Source: a virus
Strand: one strand, 5' to 3'
DNA: 23,718 nt
Virus record (IMG/VR): IMGVR_UViG_3300031841_000927
Span: 1-23,718 of that record
The position numbers and the translations under genes were made by a program. Positions 1,587 through 23,718 of this stretch are shown piece by piece. Position 1 is the first letter of the stretch. Each line of letters opens with the position of its first letter. The notes beneath the pieces were generated by a model, which saw only the letters and a program-made list of their open reading frames with translations, was not told the DNA's origin and made no database searches.

Positions 1587-1739
1587 TTAAGCTGGCATCA
1601 AACCAGTGTTTGTAATACGCCAACTGATAGCTGGGTATTTTCGCTCGAGCTGCTTTTGTTTAGCTCTACAAATACACCACTTGCTGTACTCGTTATAAGT
1701 AAACCAAAAACTGCCATCGTAGAATTGTAAAAGATACAT
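1587..1739 (-). CDS. Small hypothetical protein (50 aa)
   Basis: This leftward ORF encodes MYLLQFYDGSFWFTYNEYSK and onward, rich in aromatics in the first half and basic in the second (CRAKQKQLERKY). I prefer the ATG at 1739 because AAGGAAG lies eight to ten bases upstream. A longer frame using a GTG at 1808 would begin inside the intrinsic terminator. Its stop is three bases from the 5' end of tRNA-Trp. The sequence just upstream of this ATG (the block around 1749-1757) is the outer edge of the large inverted repeat; the coding part itself is not duplicated. No family is recognised, and it may not be translated. Confidence 0.5.
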   Translation of the reverse strand: MYLLQFYDGSFWFTYNEYSKWCICRAKQKQLERKYPAISWRITNTGLMPA

Positions 1740-1777
1740 CAGCTTCTTCCTTGTGTTGCCCCCAGTGTCATAAGCAC

Positions 1778-1811
1778 AAAAAAAAGTGACAGCCTGCTCG
1801 ACTGTCACTTT
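1778..1811 (-). terminator. Rho-independent terminator, leftward
   Basis: On the minus strand a ten-pair stem (AAAGTGACAG / CTGTCACTTT) with a nine-base loop is followed by an unbroken T run, the classical intrinsic terminator. It begins eight bases after the stop of the 1819-2265 gene, so it should end that transcript and separate it from the tRNA and ardC genes. The equivalent position in the inverted copy (about 3070-3104) has lost both the stem symmetry and the T run. Confidence 0.88.
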
Positions 1812-1818
1812 CTGATAA

Positions 1819-2265
1819 TTAGGCTGACTTGGCTAAGATTTTGTCAATCTGTTCTAGCTCGGACTGACTTGCAGACGCGCCGGAACCAGACTTTCTTGGT
1901 GGATTCCATGTTTCGCCTGTCAATTTCTTATAGACCGCACGATCATTCTTGTGCGTTTCTTCAAGCTCTTTCAATTCTTCTTCCATGCTTTTGAAGATAT
2001 CGAGCTTCTTGGAAAGTTTTACACCAGTGATAGTGCCTTTCCCTTCGGTCTTCTCATCGTCCAGCAGTTGCTGTCTGAGACTTGCCATGTCCGCTTTGAC
2101 ATCTAGCATAAGACCATGTTTGTATTCGATAGAATTATTGCTAGTGTAGCACGCATCACGGGCTTTGTTGATTCTGTTATATTCCCCTGAATGGTAGCAT
2201 GCTACAGCCATCTTCAAAGTGAACAAATCGTACTCTTTTATCAGTGTTTCAATTTTATTAGACAT
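1819..2265 (-). CDS. Hypothetical charged helical protein, source gene of the inverted copy
   Basis: This 148-residue leftward protein is preceded by GAGGAG at six-base spacing and followed by an intrinsic terminator, so it looks like a complete monocistronic gene. It is highly charged and predicted helical: residues about 60-80 (KADMASLRQQLLDDEKTEG) and 88-115 (KKLDIFKSMEEELKELEETH) look like coiled-coil segments. A Gly/Ser/Ala linker (KSGSGASASQ) precedes a short terminal helix. No catalytic motif or membrane segment is seen. It reads as a small structural or regulatory phage protein, family unknown. Oddly, the whole gene with its leader and terminator is mirrored, in degenerate form, on the other strand at 2429-3156. 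This left copy is the intact one. Confidence 0.82.
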   Translation of the reverse strand: MSNKIETLIKEYDLFTLKMAVACYHSGEYNRINKARDACYTSNNSIEYKHGLMLDVKADMASLRQQLLDDEKTEGKGTITGVKLSKKLDIFKSMEEELKELEETHKNDRAVYKKLTGETWNPPRKSGSGASASQSELEQIDKILAKSA

Positions 2266-2288
2266 TTCAAACTCCTCGTTTTGCCTAG

Positions 2289-2317
2289 ATTTAAGATACG
2301 TTCTGTAGCCAGAACAA
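2289..2317 (-). promoter_or_regulatory. Possible weak sigma70-like promoter for the 1819-2265 gene
   Basis: On the minus strand TTGTTC (complement of 2312-2317) and TTAAAT (complement of 2289-2294) are separated by 17 bases, placed about 25 bases before the start codon. The match to consensus is modest. In the inverted copy the -35 counterpart is destroyed and the -10 counterpart reads TTGAAT, consistent with loss of function there. Confidence 0.35.
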
Positions 2318-2402
2318 GACTAGGCCTGCCACTATCTTGCAATGCTGTCCAGCAAAGCTGGGCGTCTTCTCGAACTGGCATCGGCGAACAGCCGTCAATC
2401 AA

Positions 2403-2452
2403 ACAGGGGGGCCTGGCTGAAGCCTGCGAAAGCCAAGCCCCCAGCCCCCTGT
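2403..2452. repeat. GC-rich hairpin at the palindrome centre
   Basis: GGGGGC-C-TGGCT (2407-2418) pairs with AGCCA-A-GCCCCC (2431-2442), giving eleven pairs with one mismatch and a 12-base loop. Alternatively ACAGGGGG (2403-2410) pairs with CCCCCTGT (2445-2452), so two G-C-rich foldings compete. No T run follows on either strand, so it is not a standard terminator. It sits at the symmetry axis of the two arms, as expected for the turn-round point of a fold-back duplication or the apex of a long hairpin RNA. Confidence 0.7.
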
Positions 2453-2614
2453 CCGCACAACCACAAACCAGTTACGCACAACCTACCAGTACAGGGGGAA
2501 CAAGCCAGACGGAAGTTGCTGGATGGCAGGGCAAGATTGTGGAAGCCTTATGTCGCAGTCTGGGTACAGAACGTGTCTTGAATCTAGCCTTGCAAAACGT
2601 GGGGTTTGCACCAA

Positions 2615-3063
2615 ATGTCTTGTAAAATTGGAACGCTGATGAAAGAGTCCTTACGATTTGTTCCACTTTTAAGATGGCCTCTTTTGTAGCATGCTTCCAT
2701 TTTCAGTTTACTGCAGGGGAATATAGCACAGAATCCAAAGCCCGTATGCGTACTCCGCTACACTTGCACATGAATTCTGTCGACTACAAACTGGATCGTT
2801 GCTGTCAAAGCGGACATGCTATGTCGAAGCCGCCAACTGCTGGCGATGCACGAAGACCGAAGACGTAAGGCACTGTCGCTGGTTCTTGTAAAACTTCAAG
2901 AAGTGAGATAAAGCATGGAAGAAAATTGACTAAGAGCTTACGCACGAGAATGAACGTCCTTGCGGTCTATTGACAGGCGAAACTGGTATCCGCCTCTGGC
3001 TCCGGCGCGCCTGCTTTACGTCAGTCCCTAGAACAGTGACAAAATCTGCCGCCTTACGTCAGC
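2615..3063 (+). pseudogene. Degenerate inverted copy of the 1819-2265 gene
   Basis: Starting at an ATG that mirrors the true start, the copy reads MSCKIGTLMKE (compare MSNKIETLIKE) before a four-base CCTT insertion shifts the frame, and a stop follows about 25 codons in. Further blocks of the gene appear in all frames (for example those encoding VKADM and LTGE), interrupted by insertions and deletions. The counterpart of the stop codon is lost. The ribosome site is altered (GAGGAG to GTGGGG) and the terminator is broken. It cannot encode the protein. The leader, gene and terminator were copied together, so this was a DNA-level inverted duplication rather than a retroposed message, unless the region is an assembly artefact. 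Confidence 0.8.
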
Positions 3064-3105
3064 CATCAGAAAGGGACTGACACGAGCAGGCTGGCGCTTT
3101 GCCTT

Positions 3106-3114
3106 TGTGCGTTG
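3106..3114 (+). promoter_or_regulatory. TGTGCGTTG motif, copy 1 (before small terminase)
   Basis: This is an exact copy of a 9-mer found five times in the window, always on the + strand and shortly before a new gene block. It overlaps the TTGACA of the promoter candidate upstream of the small-terminase-like gene. Confidence 0.4.
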
Positions 3115-3140
3115 ACAAGCATAATAGCCCCATCCATATT
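3112..3140 (+). promoter_or_regulatory. Candidate promoter for the rightward genes
   Basis: A perfect TTGACA (3112-3117) is followed after 17 bases by CATATT (3135-3140), 40 bases upstream of the 3180 start. CATAAT also occurs eight bases inside the spacer region but at too short a distance. Between the promoter and the gene are two runs of seven G (3141-3147 and 3155-3161). A similar string, TTGACA-CATTATAGCC, recurs at 3663, supporting a shared element. The motif quality is good but untested. Confidence 0.5.
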
Positions 3141-3179
3141 GGGGGGGAACACAAGGGGGGGTAAGAATAGGTAGCATCA

Positions 3180-3560
3180 ATGAATGATATAGCGAAAGTA
3201 CGTCCAGTAACCGCCAAGCAAGCGGCCTTAGTTGATGCGCTTGTAGCAAATGGATGCAGTATCACAGAGGCCGCCCGTTTGGCAGGTTACGCAGACGGCG
3301 AAAGCGGGAGAGTGACAGCCAGCAAAGCTTTGCGCCTGCCGCATGTGCAGATGTACATGATGGAACGAATAGGCGAGACGCTCGGGCTGAATGCTACGGT
3401 TGCTAGCGCAAAGCTTGTTCAGTTGGCAAAAGGGGCCAAGTCGGAGTACGTGCAGCTAGAAGCAAGCAAAGACATCTTAGATCGAGCAGGCTACAAGGCC
3501 CCTGACCGCCAACTGACCATGAGAGCTGGCGACATAGCCGTTAGTATAGACTTGTCCTAG
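3180..3560 (+). CDS. terS: Putative terminase small subunit
   Basis: This 126-residue protein is the first of the rightward genes. Residues about 12-55 (KQAALVDALVANGCSITEAARLAGYADGESGRVTASKAL) follow the small-terminase pattern: a helix, a helix-turn-helix with the 'EAARLAGY' turn, then a helix. A 'LRLPHVQMYMMER' segment leads into a C-terminal oligomerisation-like helix containing LVQLAKGAKSEYVQLEASKDILDRAGY. Known small terminases of this type bind the packaging start site and hand DNA to the large subunit. The large terminase lies about 3.5 kb downstream with many small genes between. The ribosome site is weak (AGG at about nine bases). A DNA-binding regulator with a similar fold is the main alternative. 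Confidence 0.72.
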   Translation: MNDIAKVRPVTAKQAALVDALVANGCSITEAARLAGYADGESGRVTASKALRLPHVQMYMMERIGETLGLNATVASAKLVQLAKGAKSEYVQLEASKDILDRAGYKAPDRQLTMRAGDIAVSIDLS

Positions 3561-4300: not shown

Positions 4301-5164
4301 ATGCCAAATTTAGATGAAATACAAAATACTATTCGTTCAAAAGCAATGGTTTCTGAACACTACACTTGGTATGTGCAAGCAATTTTGAATGGCATGCTGC
4401 CTCAATTTTTATCTCCGTTTAAAACAGAATTTACAGCAGATGATGTTTCTGGTGAATATTTAGAAGCTATGCGTATTGTTGCAAAAAAATATGCTTCTGA
4501 TTTAGAAGAGGGCGAGCAGGTAGCTTTAGGTTATAGCAACGTGCGCAAAGCATTAGGCGCAAAGAGCGACTACTGGAAAACATTTGAAGTTGATAGCATA
4601 GCAGACACAATTAACTATACGCTTGGAAGGTTTAACATTAGAAAACAAGACGGAAAGTTATTTGTTTATAAAGATACCTATGATTATCCACCAGAATTTG
4701 CCAATAAATTTTTAGAAGAACAGGGCAGAATGCCAACTTCAATGGATTACATAAAAGAAGCAATCAACCTATCGCAAAAAGATGAAATGATAACAAAAGA
4801 AAAAATACATCGCATTGCGCATTTAGGTGGCGAAATGTTTATGGCGGAAGGTGATGAAAGCAATTTAGTTGCTAATATTGAAATACCAGAAGAGCCTGTT
4901 GTAATTAATACTGACTTTGATGCAGATTATTCAGATGATAGAGCAGCAGTCTTTAAAGGCCCAATGACAACAAAAAGAAAAAGTATATTTGATTCTTTTA
5001 TTGGATTATTTGTTGGTGAAGCACAAGCAGCAGAATCTAATGTTCCTGTTCCTCAACCACGCCCACCAAAAATGGTTGATGTTGAAGCACCATTGTCACG
5101 CCCAACAACAGCACAGATACAAGAATCACAAGGAGATTTTGCATTTGAAGGGCCAGCAGCATAA
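4301..5164 (+). CDS. Hypothetical phage protein, 287 aa
   Basis: A soluble 287-residue protein. Residues 1-180 are a helical, mixed-charge domain (VSEHYTWYVQAILNGML, EEGEQVALGYSNVRKALGA, YPPEFANKFLEEQGRMPTS). Residues about 181-228 form an acidic linker (DFDADYSDDR). A short hydrophobic patch, IFDSFIGLFVGEAQAAE, follows at about 228-245 and resembles a signal-peptidase-like AXA context. The tail is proline-rich (VPQPRPP) and ends FAFEGPAA. I know of similar uncharacterised proteins upstream of terminase genes in marine podoviruses but cannot name a function. No strong ribosome site is seen (CAGGA lies too far upstream). The stop overlaps the next start as TAATG, so coupling is likely. Confidence 0.75.
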   Translation: MPNLDEIQNTIRSKAMVSEHYTWYVQAILNGMLPQFLSPFKTEFTADDVSGEYLEAMRIVAKKYASDLEEGEQVALGYSNVRKALGAKSDYWKTFEVDSIADTINYTLGRFNIRKQDGKLFVYKDTYDYPPEFANKFLEEQGRMPTSMDYIKEAINLSQKDEMITKEKIHRIAHLGGEMFMAEGDESNLVANIEIPEEPVVINTDFDADYSDDRAAVFKGPMTTKRKSIFDSFIGLFVGEAQAAESNVPVPQPRPPKMVDVEAPLSRPTTAQIQESQGDFAFEGPAA

Positions 5165-5721: not shown

Positions 5722-5924
5722 TGTTTTATGCATCTCTTCTTTTTTGTTGGGTTGCTTTTGGTGGGCAACAATGTCTCATTGCCCAAGACACAGAAGGGCC
5801 ATACATTAAAGAAGAGCAATGCTTAAATAGGTTAAAGGAAATGGAATTTACTATTCATCAAAAGATTCCTTTATCTAAAATAACAGCAAAAGAGTGCATA
5901 CAACAAAAAGAGGGTAAGGTATAA
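5721..5924 (+). CDS. Small secreted or membrane-associated cysteine-containing protein
   Basis: A 67-residue ORF with a hydrophobic N-terminus (FYASLLFCWVAFGG, residues 2-15) that could be a signal peptide. It is followed by a short charged domain with cysteines at about 18, 34 and 59 (QQCLIAQD, EEQCLNRLKEM, KECIQQKEG). Similar short secreted phage proteins with paired cysteines are familiar in marine phages, without known function. The start and stop both overlap neighbours by TAATG junctions. A periplasmic disulfide-bonded role in lysis or exclusion is possible. Confidence 0.62.
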   Translation: MFYASLLFCWVAFGGQQCLIAQDTEGPYIKEEQCLNRLKEMEFTIHQKIPLSKITAKECIQQKEGKV

Positions 5925-22057: not shown

Positions 22058-23718
22058 ATGACTATAAATCTAGCAGATAATGATCCACGGATTGAATACA
22101 CAGTTGCGGATGGTAATTCGCAACAGGTATTTACTGTGCCGTTTGAGTTCTTTGATGATGGTGATTTGAATGTCTATCAGGATGGCACATTAAAAACGCT
22201 GACAACACACTATTTAACGGCGGATAATAATGATGCAGCATCAAGAGTCGCACACACTTCAGGAACTACAGGCTTTATCCACTTCACTACTGGAAACGTG
22301 CCAACAGCTTCTGGGGCTGATATCAAAATTGTTATTACTCGCTCCATCGATATTGAGCGAACTACTGACTTCCCTTCTTCTGGGCCTTTCGATGTTGGTT
22401 CATTAAACACTGCGCTTGATAAAGTTATTGCTATTCAAGCTGACTTGCAAGATGATATTAGCCGTTCATTACGCTTAACTGATTTTGACCTTGATGCAAC
22501 ACTTACACTCCCTGCTGTTGATTCTCGCAAAGGTACAGTGCTTGCGTTTAACTCAACAACAGGCGCAGCAGAAGCTGGCCCACAAACTGGCAATGTAAAT
22601 ACTATTGCTGCTATATCTACAGATATTGATACTGTTGCAGGGATTGCCGCTAATGTCACCACTGTTGCTGGAATTAATTCTAACGTTACTACTGTGGCTG
22701 GCATTTCAAGTAATGTCACCACTGTAGCTGGTATTGCTAGTGATGTTAGTGCTGTTGCGGCAGATGCCACTGATATTGGTGCTGTTGCTGCAAAAGCAAC
22801 TGAGATTGGAAGATTAGGCACTGCTGATGCAGTAGCTGATATGGCTATTCTTGGAACTGCTGATGTTGTTGCTGATATGAATACTTTGGCAACATCTGCT
22901 ATTGTTACAGACCTTGATGCTCTTGCTAATCTTGCAACAGAGATTGATGCTCTTGGTGATATAACCTCGAACATAACTACAGTTGCTGGTATATCAAGTA
23001 ATGTAACTACAGTTGCTGGCGTTGCTGCAAATGTAACAACAGTAGCTGGCATTGCATCTGATGTAACTGCCGTTGCTGGCATATCTAGTGACGTTGCGGC
23101 TGTAGAAAATATTGCAGCAAATGTTACTACTGTTGCTGGTATTGCTTCTAATGTAACTACTGTTGCTGGCATATCTGCAAACACAACTACGGTTGCTGGT
23201 ATTAGCGCAAATGTGACAACAGTAGCTGGAATTGCGAGCGATGTTACTACTGTTGCTGGGGATTCGGCAGATATATCAACGGTAGCTGGTATATCTAGCA
23301 ATGTAACAACAGTAGCTACAAATAACGCTAATGTTACAACCGTTGCGTCAAACATAACAGGTGTAAACAGTTTTGCTGAACGTTATCGTGTTGGTTCTTC
23401 TGACCCAACTACGTCTCTTGATGAAGGAGATTTGGCTTATAATAGTACATCTAATCAATTAAAATATTATAATGGCTCTAGTTGGGAAGCTATTTCGCCT
23501 GGAATAACTGATGTTGTAAATGACACAACACCTCAACTTGGCGGTAATTTAGATGTTAATGGCAACTCGATTGTTTCTGTTTCTAACGGTAACATTAGCA
23601 TCACACCAAACGGTTCTGGCAAAGTCATTCTTGATGGTCTATCTCATCCAACGTCAGACGGTTCTGCTGGTCAGTTCTTGAAAACAGATGGTGGCGGTAA
23701 TCTATCCTTTGCTACTGT
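22058..23718 (+). CDS. Tail fibre protein, partial (C-terminus outside window)
   Basis: At least 553 residues with ribosome site AGGGGA five bases before ATG. The N-terminus (residues about 1-150, MTINLADNDPRIEYTVADGN... VFTVPFEFF ... YLT ... SGADIKIVITRSIDIERTTDF) is the T7 gp17-type fibre attachment domain that binds the nozzle. Residues about 185-433 are many ten-residue repeats related to NVTTVAGISS. After this come RYRVGSSDPTTSLDEGDLAYNS and YYNGSSWEAI, familiar short fibre modules, then PNGSGKVILDGL and GQFLKTDGGGNLSF. The host-binding tip lies beyond the window. It forms trimers that recognise the host surface. Confidence 0.92.
   Translation, partial: MTINLADNDPRIEYTVADGNSQQVFTVPFEFFDDGDLNVYQDGTLKTLTTHYLTADNNDAASRVAHTSGTTGFIHFTTGNVPTASGADIKIVITRSIDIERTTDFPSSGPFDVGSLNTALDKVIAIQADLQDDISRSLRLTDFDLDATLTLPAVDSRKGTVLAFNSTTGAAEAGPQTGNVNTIAAISTDIDTVAGIAANVTTVAGINSNVTTVAGISSNVTTVAGIASDVSAVAADATDIGAVAAKATEIGRLGTADAVADMAILGTADVVADMNTLATSAIVTDLDALANLATEIDALGDITSNITTVAGISSNVTTVAGVAANVTTVAGIASDVTAVAGISSDVAAVENIAANVTTVAGIASNVTTVAGISANTTTVAGISANVTTVAGIASDVTTVAGDSADISTVAGISSNVTTVATNNANVTTVASNITGVNSFAERYRVGSSDPTTSLDEGDLAYNSTSNQLKYYNGSSWEAISPGITDVVNDTTPQLGGNLDVNGNSIVSVSNGNISITPNGSGKVILDGLSHPTSDGSAGQFLKTDGGGNLSFAT
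22610..23360 (+). repeat. Tandem 30-bp (10-residue) repeats in the tail fibre
   Basis: About 25 imperfect tandem units of 30 bases encode [N/D]VTTVAGI[S/A][S/A]-type decapeptides. The central units (around 22750-22980) are more diverged (ADATDIGAVAAKATEIGRL), while those on both sides are almost regular at protein level with varied codons (GTTACTACT, GTAACAACA), implying selection on the peptide and not very recent slippage. They probably form an extended trimeric shaft. Confidence 0.85.

Follow-up and report, generated by a model that had tools for sequence, protein, structure and literature searches.

The window analysed here, positions 1–23,718 of IMG/VR record IMGVR_UViG_3300031841_000927, takes in the whole of that record, a 23.7-kb viral fragment. 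Recombination and SSB genes are read leftward and structural genes rightward, a gene content from which we infer that the leftward genes are early and the rightward genes late. The rightward unit opens with terS, preceded by a conserved promoter and a double G-run, and the leftward unit with a gene for a 148-residue protein (Table 1). Among the leftward genes lies a tRNA-Trp (CCA) gene at 1509–1583, about 82% identical over 70 bases to the tRNA-Trp of T4-like Aeromonas phages. An ArdC-type antirestriction protein (ArdcN plus MPTase-PolyVal) is encoded at 614–1465 and has a counterpart in the early region of Pelagibacter phage Hodr. The long ORF that follows the internal virion proteins (22058 onward) contains, at 22590–23350, a degenerate repeat that stays in frame, of the type VAGIASNVTTVAGISSNVTTV.

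The junction between the divergent units is occupied by an imperfect palindrome of 1.4 kb. Comparison of the window with itself by blastn returned exactly one long inverted repeat, in which 1766–2355 pairs with 3117–2516 (72.6% over 653 columns, 65 mismatches, 37 gap openings, E = 1.2e-84). Symmetric local alignment of the arms, with no wobble bonus, also recovered one inverted repeat and carried it to the apex, joining 1766–2422 with 3117–2424 over about 602 columns that are 88% Watson–Crick; at the base, the palindrome extends to 1749–1763/3142–3156. We saw no second such feature in the window or in the genomes of several relatives. The first-pass annotation, made from the letters alone, had described one continuous fold-back at this junction, and the alignments bear it out, down to blocks at 2061–2101/2803–2843, 1910–1924/2969–2983 and, outermost, the basal pair. 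Its single anti-diagonal also stands, although the range it gave for the sum of paired coordinates, 4872–4905, was slightly too narrow: the sum falls from about 4905 at the base to some 4846 at the apex, around a centre at about 2423–2425.

Table 1. Features of the hairpin locus (window coordinates; both arms as read in the terS-sense RNA)
Feature	Position	Strand	Remarks
Basal block, left arm	1749–1763	+	mirrors the G-run motif (CCTTGTGTTGCCCCC); inverted repeat
Left (5′) arm	1766–2422	+	antisense to the leftward gene with its leader and terminator; inverted-repeat alignments, fold
Intrinsic terminator of leftward gene	~1779–1812	−	GTGACAG...CTGTCAC then T-run on minus strand; direct reading
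Leftward gene, 148 aa	1819–2265	−	wholly within left arm; predicted antiparallel helical protein; dN/dS 0.26–0.45
Apical loop region of predicted rod, GC-rich centre	2418–2431	+	RNAfold of 1711–3175
Right (3′) arm	2424–3117	+	non-coding, complementary to left arm; no ORF homologous to the 148-aa gene
Promoter of terS, sigma70 type, conserved	3112–3140	+	TTGACA-17-CATATT; at 3′ base of rod
Double G-run	3141–3161	+	GGGGGGG-AACACAA-GGGGGGG; directly after promoter; 64/115 loci
Basal block, right arm	3142–3156	+	inside the G-run motif (GGGGGGAACACAAGG); inverted repeat
terS, terminase small subunit (Terminase_2)	3180–3560	+	

The same annotation had taken the structure for a complete gene unit mirrored in degenerate form. 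The left arm does hold the complete leftward unit, and the terminator of that unit has a degenerate mirror near 3065–3101; we found no ORF in the right arm homologous to the 148-residue gene. The gene itself is under purifying selection. Its product is predicted to be a helical antiparallel coiled coil (pLDDT 84), for which we found no Pfam or PDB match and one weak PHROG of unknown function, and Foldseek returned generic helical coiled coils only.

Related phages carry hairpins at the same position

We collected terS relatives from IMG/VR together with the isolate Pelagibacter phage EXVC031P Hodr; removal of near-duplicates left a non-redundant set of 115 loci. Among the first 80 relatives, only L001 and L002 share the arm sequence of the window (91–95%). 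Many others have an inverted repeat of their own at the same place, usually with unrelated arm sequence. Scoring of Watson–Crick pairs only gives a clear inverted repeat in 39 of the 115 loci. Hairpin length ranges from 0.45 to 1.6 kb across the terS relatives. A short class of about 450–700 nt takes in the leader and N-terminal part of the leftward gene. In a long class, of about 1.2–1.5 kb, the whole leftward gene lies inside the 5′ arm; intermediate sizes also occur. In the loci checked, the apex falls roughly 35–160 nt upstream of the leftward start codon. The 148-residue protein family occurs in long-class loci, where hairpins persist around homologous proteins of only about 24–43% identity, and short-class phages have other genes in its place, with no detectable relation to that family. 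The element is conserved in position and mostly unconstrained in sequence. The only conserved motifs that we found in the rod are the terS promoter, the G-runs and the complement of the ribosome-binding site of the leftward gene.

By symmetric self-comparison, other inverted repeats in the relatives' genomes are few and all small, and the more distant phages HTVC010P, Baldr, MEP301 and Vibrio phage 1.257.O show no comparable inverted repeat. Hodr and G005 are missed by this comparison, presumably because their pairing is gap-rich, yet they fold well. Some relatives, L330 for example, have no clear hairpin, and L040 has no clear terS-sense rod. In the Hodr-like branch, L293 and L294 have long hairpins, about 1.42 kb upstream of terS, that are about 90% Watson–Crick with little G.T bias and are apparently young or recently homogenised. 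L022 has a second, smaller palindrome at 5738–5843 (G011:C1:18698–18803), directly beside the main one. The locus tags of GenBank OQ414635 and OQ414636 look swapped, the EXVC031P Hodr record bearing EXVC032PBaldr tags and the EXVC032P Baldr record EXVC031PHodr tags.

On the terS side, TTGACA is present in 91 of the 115 loci, against 6 of 115 in a control stretch. The double G-run, whose spacer varies in sequence and length among relatives, is missing from Hodr and may serve as an operator or activator site.

Concerted change of the arms

Comparison of close relatives showed that the two arms change together. Of the changes on the 526 Watson–Crick pairs compared between the window and L001, 30 lie in the left arm and 40 in the right, and 20 pairs have changed on both sides to another Watson–Crick pair, where 2.3 double changes of any kind are expected. 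L001 and L002 are 97.8% identical, and five of the six left-arm changes between them are exactly complemented in the right arm; for L061 and L068 (98.1% identical), this holds for five of seven. Compensated pairs involve transversions about as often as transitions, 63 against 66 in a multi-pair table in which some rows are the same contigs twice, so that these totals are not independent counts, and 29 against 16 in L061/L079. The changed pairs cluster in tracts: at about 2047–2053 of the left arm, the window reads GGTCTTC and L001 reads AGTGGCT, with the matching change in each right arm. In a four-way comparison, 18 columns were concerted and none had the reverse, cross-matching pattern.

Adjacent transversions in both arms are hard to reach by stepwise compensation through G.U pairs, and arm-to-arm copying can explain them. 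The concerted tracts, together with the near-equality of transversions and transitions, indicate that one arm has probably been copied from the other as a template. RNA hairpins are known to arise and to be maintained by template switching (Monttinen and Löytynoja 2022, PMC8794818), which on a quasi-palindrome would both enlarge and repair the hairpin. An excess of exact complementary changes in short tracts, with transversions on a par with transitions, is the pattern that marks a quasi-palindrome maintained in this way, and it is the pattern found here.

Mismatches, folding and the strand that acts

Where the arms do not match, the mismatches are strand-specific. Read on the terS-sense strand under symmetric scoring and corrected for arm composition, G.T outnumbers A.C by 523 to 135 (against 55.5% expected; P = 7e-38), A.G outnumbers C.T by 433 to 191, G.G outnumbers C.C by 150 to 46 and T.T outnumbers A.A by 226 to 118. 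Ordered by observed over expected, the mismatches run GU > GA > UU, GG > CU, AA > AC, CC, which parallels their stability in RNA. The most extreme single hairpins have G.T to A.C counts of 64:2 (L036), 57:2 (L186) and 37:5 (L061). RNA-type asymmetry is a property of the clade and is weak in the window alone (19 GT to 14 AC). The near-perfect hairpins of L293 and L294 show no mismatch bias, as expected if copying resets the arms. The arms of L062 combine a large A.G excess (63) with 30 G.T, unlike the other hairpins. An earlier alignment that rewarded wobble pairs gave nearly every relative a hairpin and a huge G.T excess; it was dropped, as its genome-wide background is 200–300 and it favours G.T by construction, and our claims rest instead on symmetric scoring and on folding against shuffles.

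Folded as terS-sense RNA (RNAfold), the window element forms a single 534-pair rod that spans 1711/3174 to 2418/2431, at −797 kcal/mol; its dinucleotide shuffles, the control used throughout, fold at about −427 kcal/mol (−421 to −437). Long-class hairpins fold as one structure, and the short ones, too, give a single rod. Across the clade, 86 of 115 loci fold more than 25 kcal/mol below shuffles over the 510 nt before terS, a fixed stretch in which the longest hairpins are represented by one arm only. In minimum-energy folds, the terS leader is predicted to be base-paired at the base of the rod. Plus-strand folds are the more stable (L036, −805 against −546 kcal/mol), by a median of −21.8 kcal/mol upstream of terS; coding controls downstream favour the plus strand too, by a median of −14.6 kcal/mol (paired P = 0.0009 against upstream). 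Folding energy alone is therefore weak evidence for the strand, and it is the mismatch spectrum that bears this claim. Less probably, a strong strand-specific mutation bias lies behind that spectrum; its RNA-like, strand-specific pattern is best read as selection on the fold of the terS-sense RNA, and we consider RNA more likely than DNA to be the acting form.

Possible roles and comparison with known systems

Two forces seem to maintain the hairpin: copying from arm to arm, and the tolerance of the terS-sense RNA for particular mismatches. The acting form that we infer from these patterns is a rod-shaped RNA of about 0.5–1.5 kb, transcribed in the direction of terS. An RNA that came in from the left would form the rod, whose base would cover the terS promoter and leader and whose 5′ arm would lie antisense to the leftward gene, over its leader and start or, in the window, over its full length. 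With its leader buried at the base, read-through RNA would be kept from expressing terS and the late genes, and the rod would at the same time oppose the leftward gene; RNA begun at the dedicated terS promoter would lack the rod and so escape. That the element is a cis-acting early/late switch is our guess at its role. Taken as a whole, the proposal that the terS clade keeps a giant hairpin between leftward early and rightward late genes, acting as a terS-sense rod RNA and perhaps as an early/late switch, seems to us evenly balanced between right and wrong. Somewhat less likely than not, in our view, is that it represents a class of RNA not described before: a rod, about 0.5–1.5 kb long, set by fold and position and hardly by sequence, its arms written by template switching, with an antisense protein gene in the 5′ arm and a part in the early/late switch.

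The main rival to an RNA is a DNA element, in which the terS-sense strand would fold as single-stranded DNA during replication or packaging, as a packaging or origin structure or a concatemer-junction hairpin like the one proposed for T7, and selection would act on that fold. The position beside terS suits such an element, as do the SSB, RecE-like exonuclease and RusA-like Holliday junction resolvase in the genome context of Hodr. G.T, G.G and G.A are the milder mismatches in DNA too, and no conserved sigma70 promoter from which an RNA could start was found at the 5′ base of the rod in the relatives' loci. Against this, the long hairpins have G.U at about the frequency of ordinary RNA helices (64 GT among 489 WC + GT pairs in L036), and the excess of T.T over A.A fits RNA better; we regard the DNA reading as unlikely, if the strongest competitor. 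Slightly less probable still is that the hairpin has no function of its own, the inverted duplication having arisen once or repeatedly and template switching keeping the arms alike as a mutational by-product. In favour of this, the templated tracts are clear in both arms, and hairpins differ greatly in length and age, from about 90% Watson–Crick in L293/L294 to about 75% in L036. Yet compact phages across the clade retain, at one position, a non-coding right arm of up to 0.7 kb, the element is the only one of its kind in the genomes of several relatives, and the mismatch spectrum is strand-specific and leans towards RNA stability.

Two further readings had been offered by the first-pass annotation and fare much worse. 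A fold-back duplicate of the 148-residue gene, now in decay, would account for a left arm that codes under purifying selection opposite a right arm that is non-coding. But right-arm changes track those of the left arm, long hairpins outlast extensive divergence of the proteins within them, short-class relatives mirror only the leader and part of a gene, and the hairpin stays in place through complete turnover of its sequence; we think decay very improbable. An assembly or amplification artefact has in its favour that fold-back chimeras do turn up in amplified and long-read DNA. Here the arms differ by 28%, near relatives (the window, L001 and L002) show concerted differences, and the same structure recurs in contigs of many independent metagenomes and in the cultured phage Hodr, which excludes an artefact for practical purposes. 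The annotation's remaining suggestion, a control region, is possible and is the functional class that we prefer.

If the terS-sense rod is real, position and pairing, not sequence, are what is conserved in a functional element that ordinary homology and covariance searches would miss; it would also be a natural, large-scale case in which template switching both creates and preserves a structure. The ocean phage group that has the element at its early/late and packaging junction counts a cultured SAR11 phage among its members, so the element can be tested. Long palindromes are normally unstable in bacteria, and one of 0.5–1.5 kb raises the question of how the genome tolerates it.

We found no description of an element like it in the open-access papers searched. 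Packaging regions offer one likeness: the T7 concatemer-junction hairpin and phage pac and cos regions also place hairpin-prone DNA beside the terminase, but the element here is far larger and its sequence is not conserved. A hairpin telomere of the N15 type, which would put a genome end at the palindrome, was rejected, as the two arms are flanked by unique genes that differ from each other, and the deposited Hodr genome is circular; in the part of each genome whose proteins were scanned, no protelomerase appeared among the PHROGs families shown. GOLLD, ROOL and IMES, some of them phage-associated, are large RNAs, as the rod is presumed to be; they have conserved sequence and branched folds, whereas the element is predicted to form a single rod of mostly unconstrained sequence, and a covariance-model search (GOLLD, ROOL, IMES and others) returned no Rfam family. 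The rod of hepatitis delta virus (HDV) is paired to about 70–75%. HDV and the Obelisks (PMC11922315) resemble the window element, which has a rod-like fold of about 1 kb, in being imperfectly paired rods of about 1–1.5 kb with a single reading frame, in one of the arms; but they are replicons of circular RNA, whereas the element is encoded in the DNA of a dsDNA phage and has its reading frame on the strand opposite to the presumed rod RNA. We rejected a replicon of their kind, a DNA-free circular RNA genome, as the element lies in phage DNA contigs and in the DNA genome of an isolate. In Nematomorpha mitochondria, inverted repeats are likewise kept alongside protein-coding constraint, but as perfect palindromes that reach 284 bp, lie within coding genes and number many per genome (PMC6649704), whereas here there is one long, imperfect element with one non-coding arm. 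Another parallel is with quasi-palindromes and RNA stems kept by template switching (PMC8794818), in which, as here, multi-base complementary changes, transversions included, appear in both arms, and stems are created and repaired in single events. Those are short helices of RNA genes, and this is a position-conserved phage hairpin of 0.5–1.5 kb, one arm of which holds a coding gene; in mutational terms, it is of their kind, on a much larger scale.
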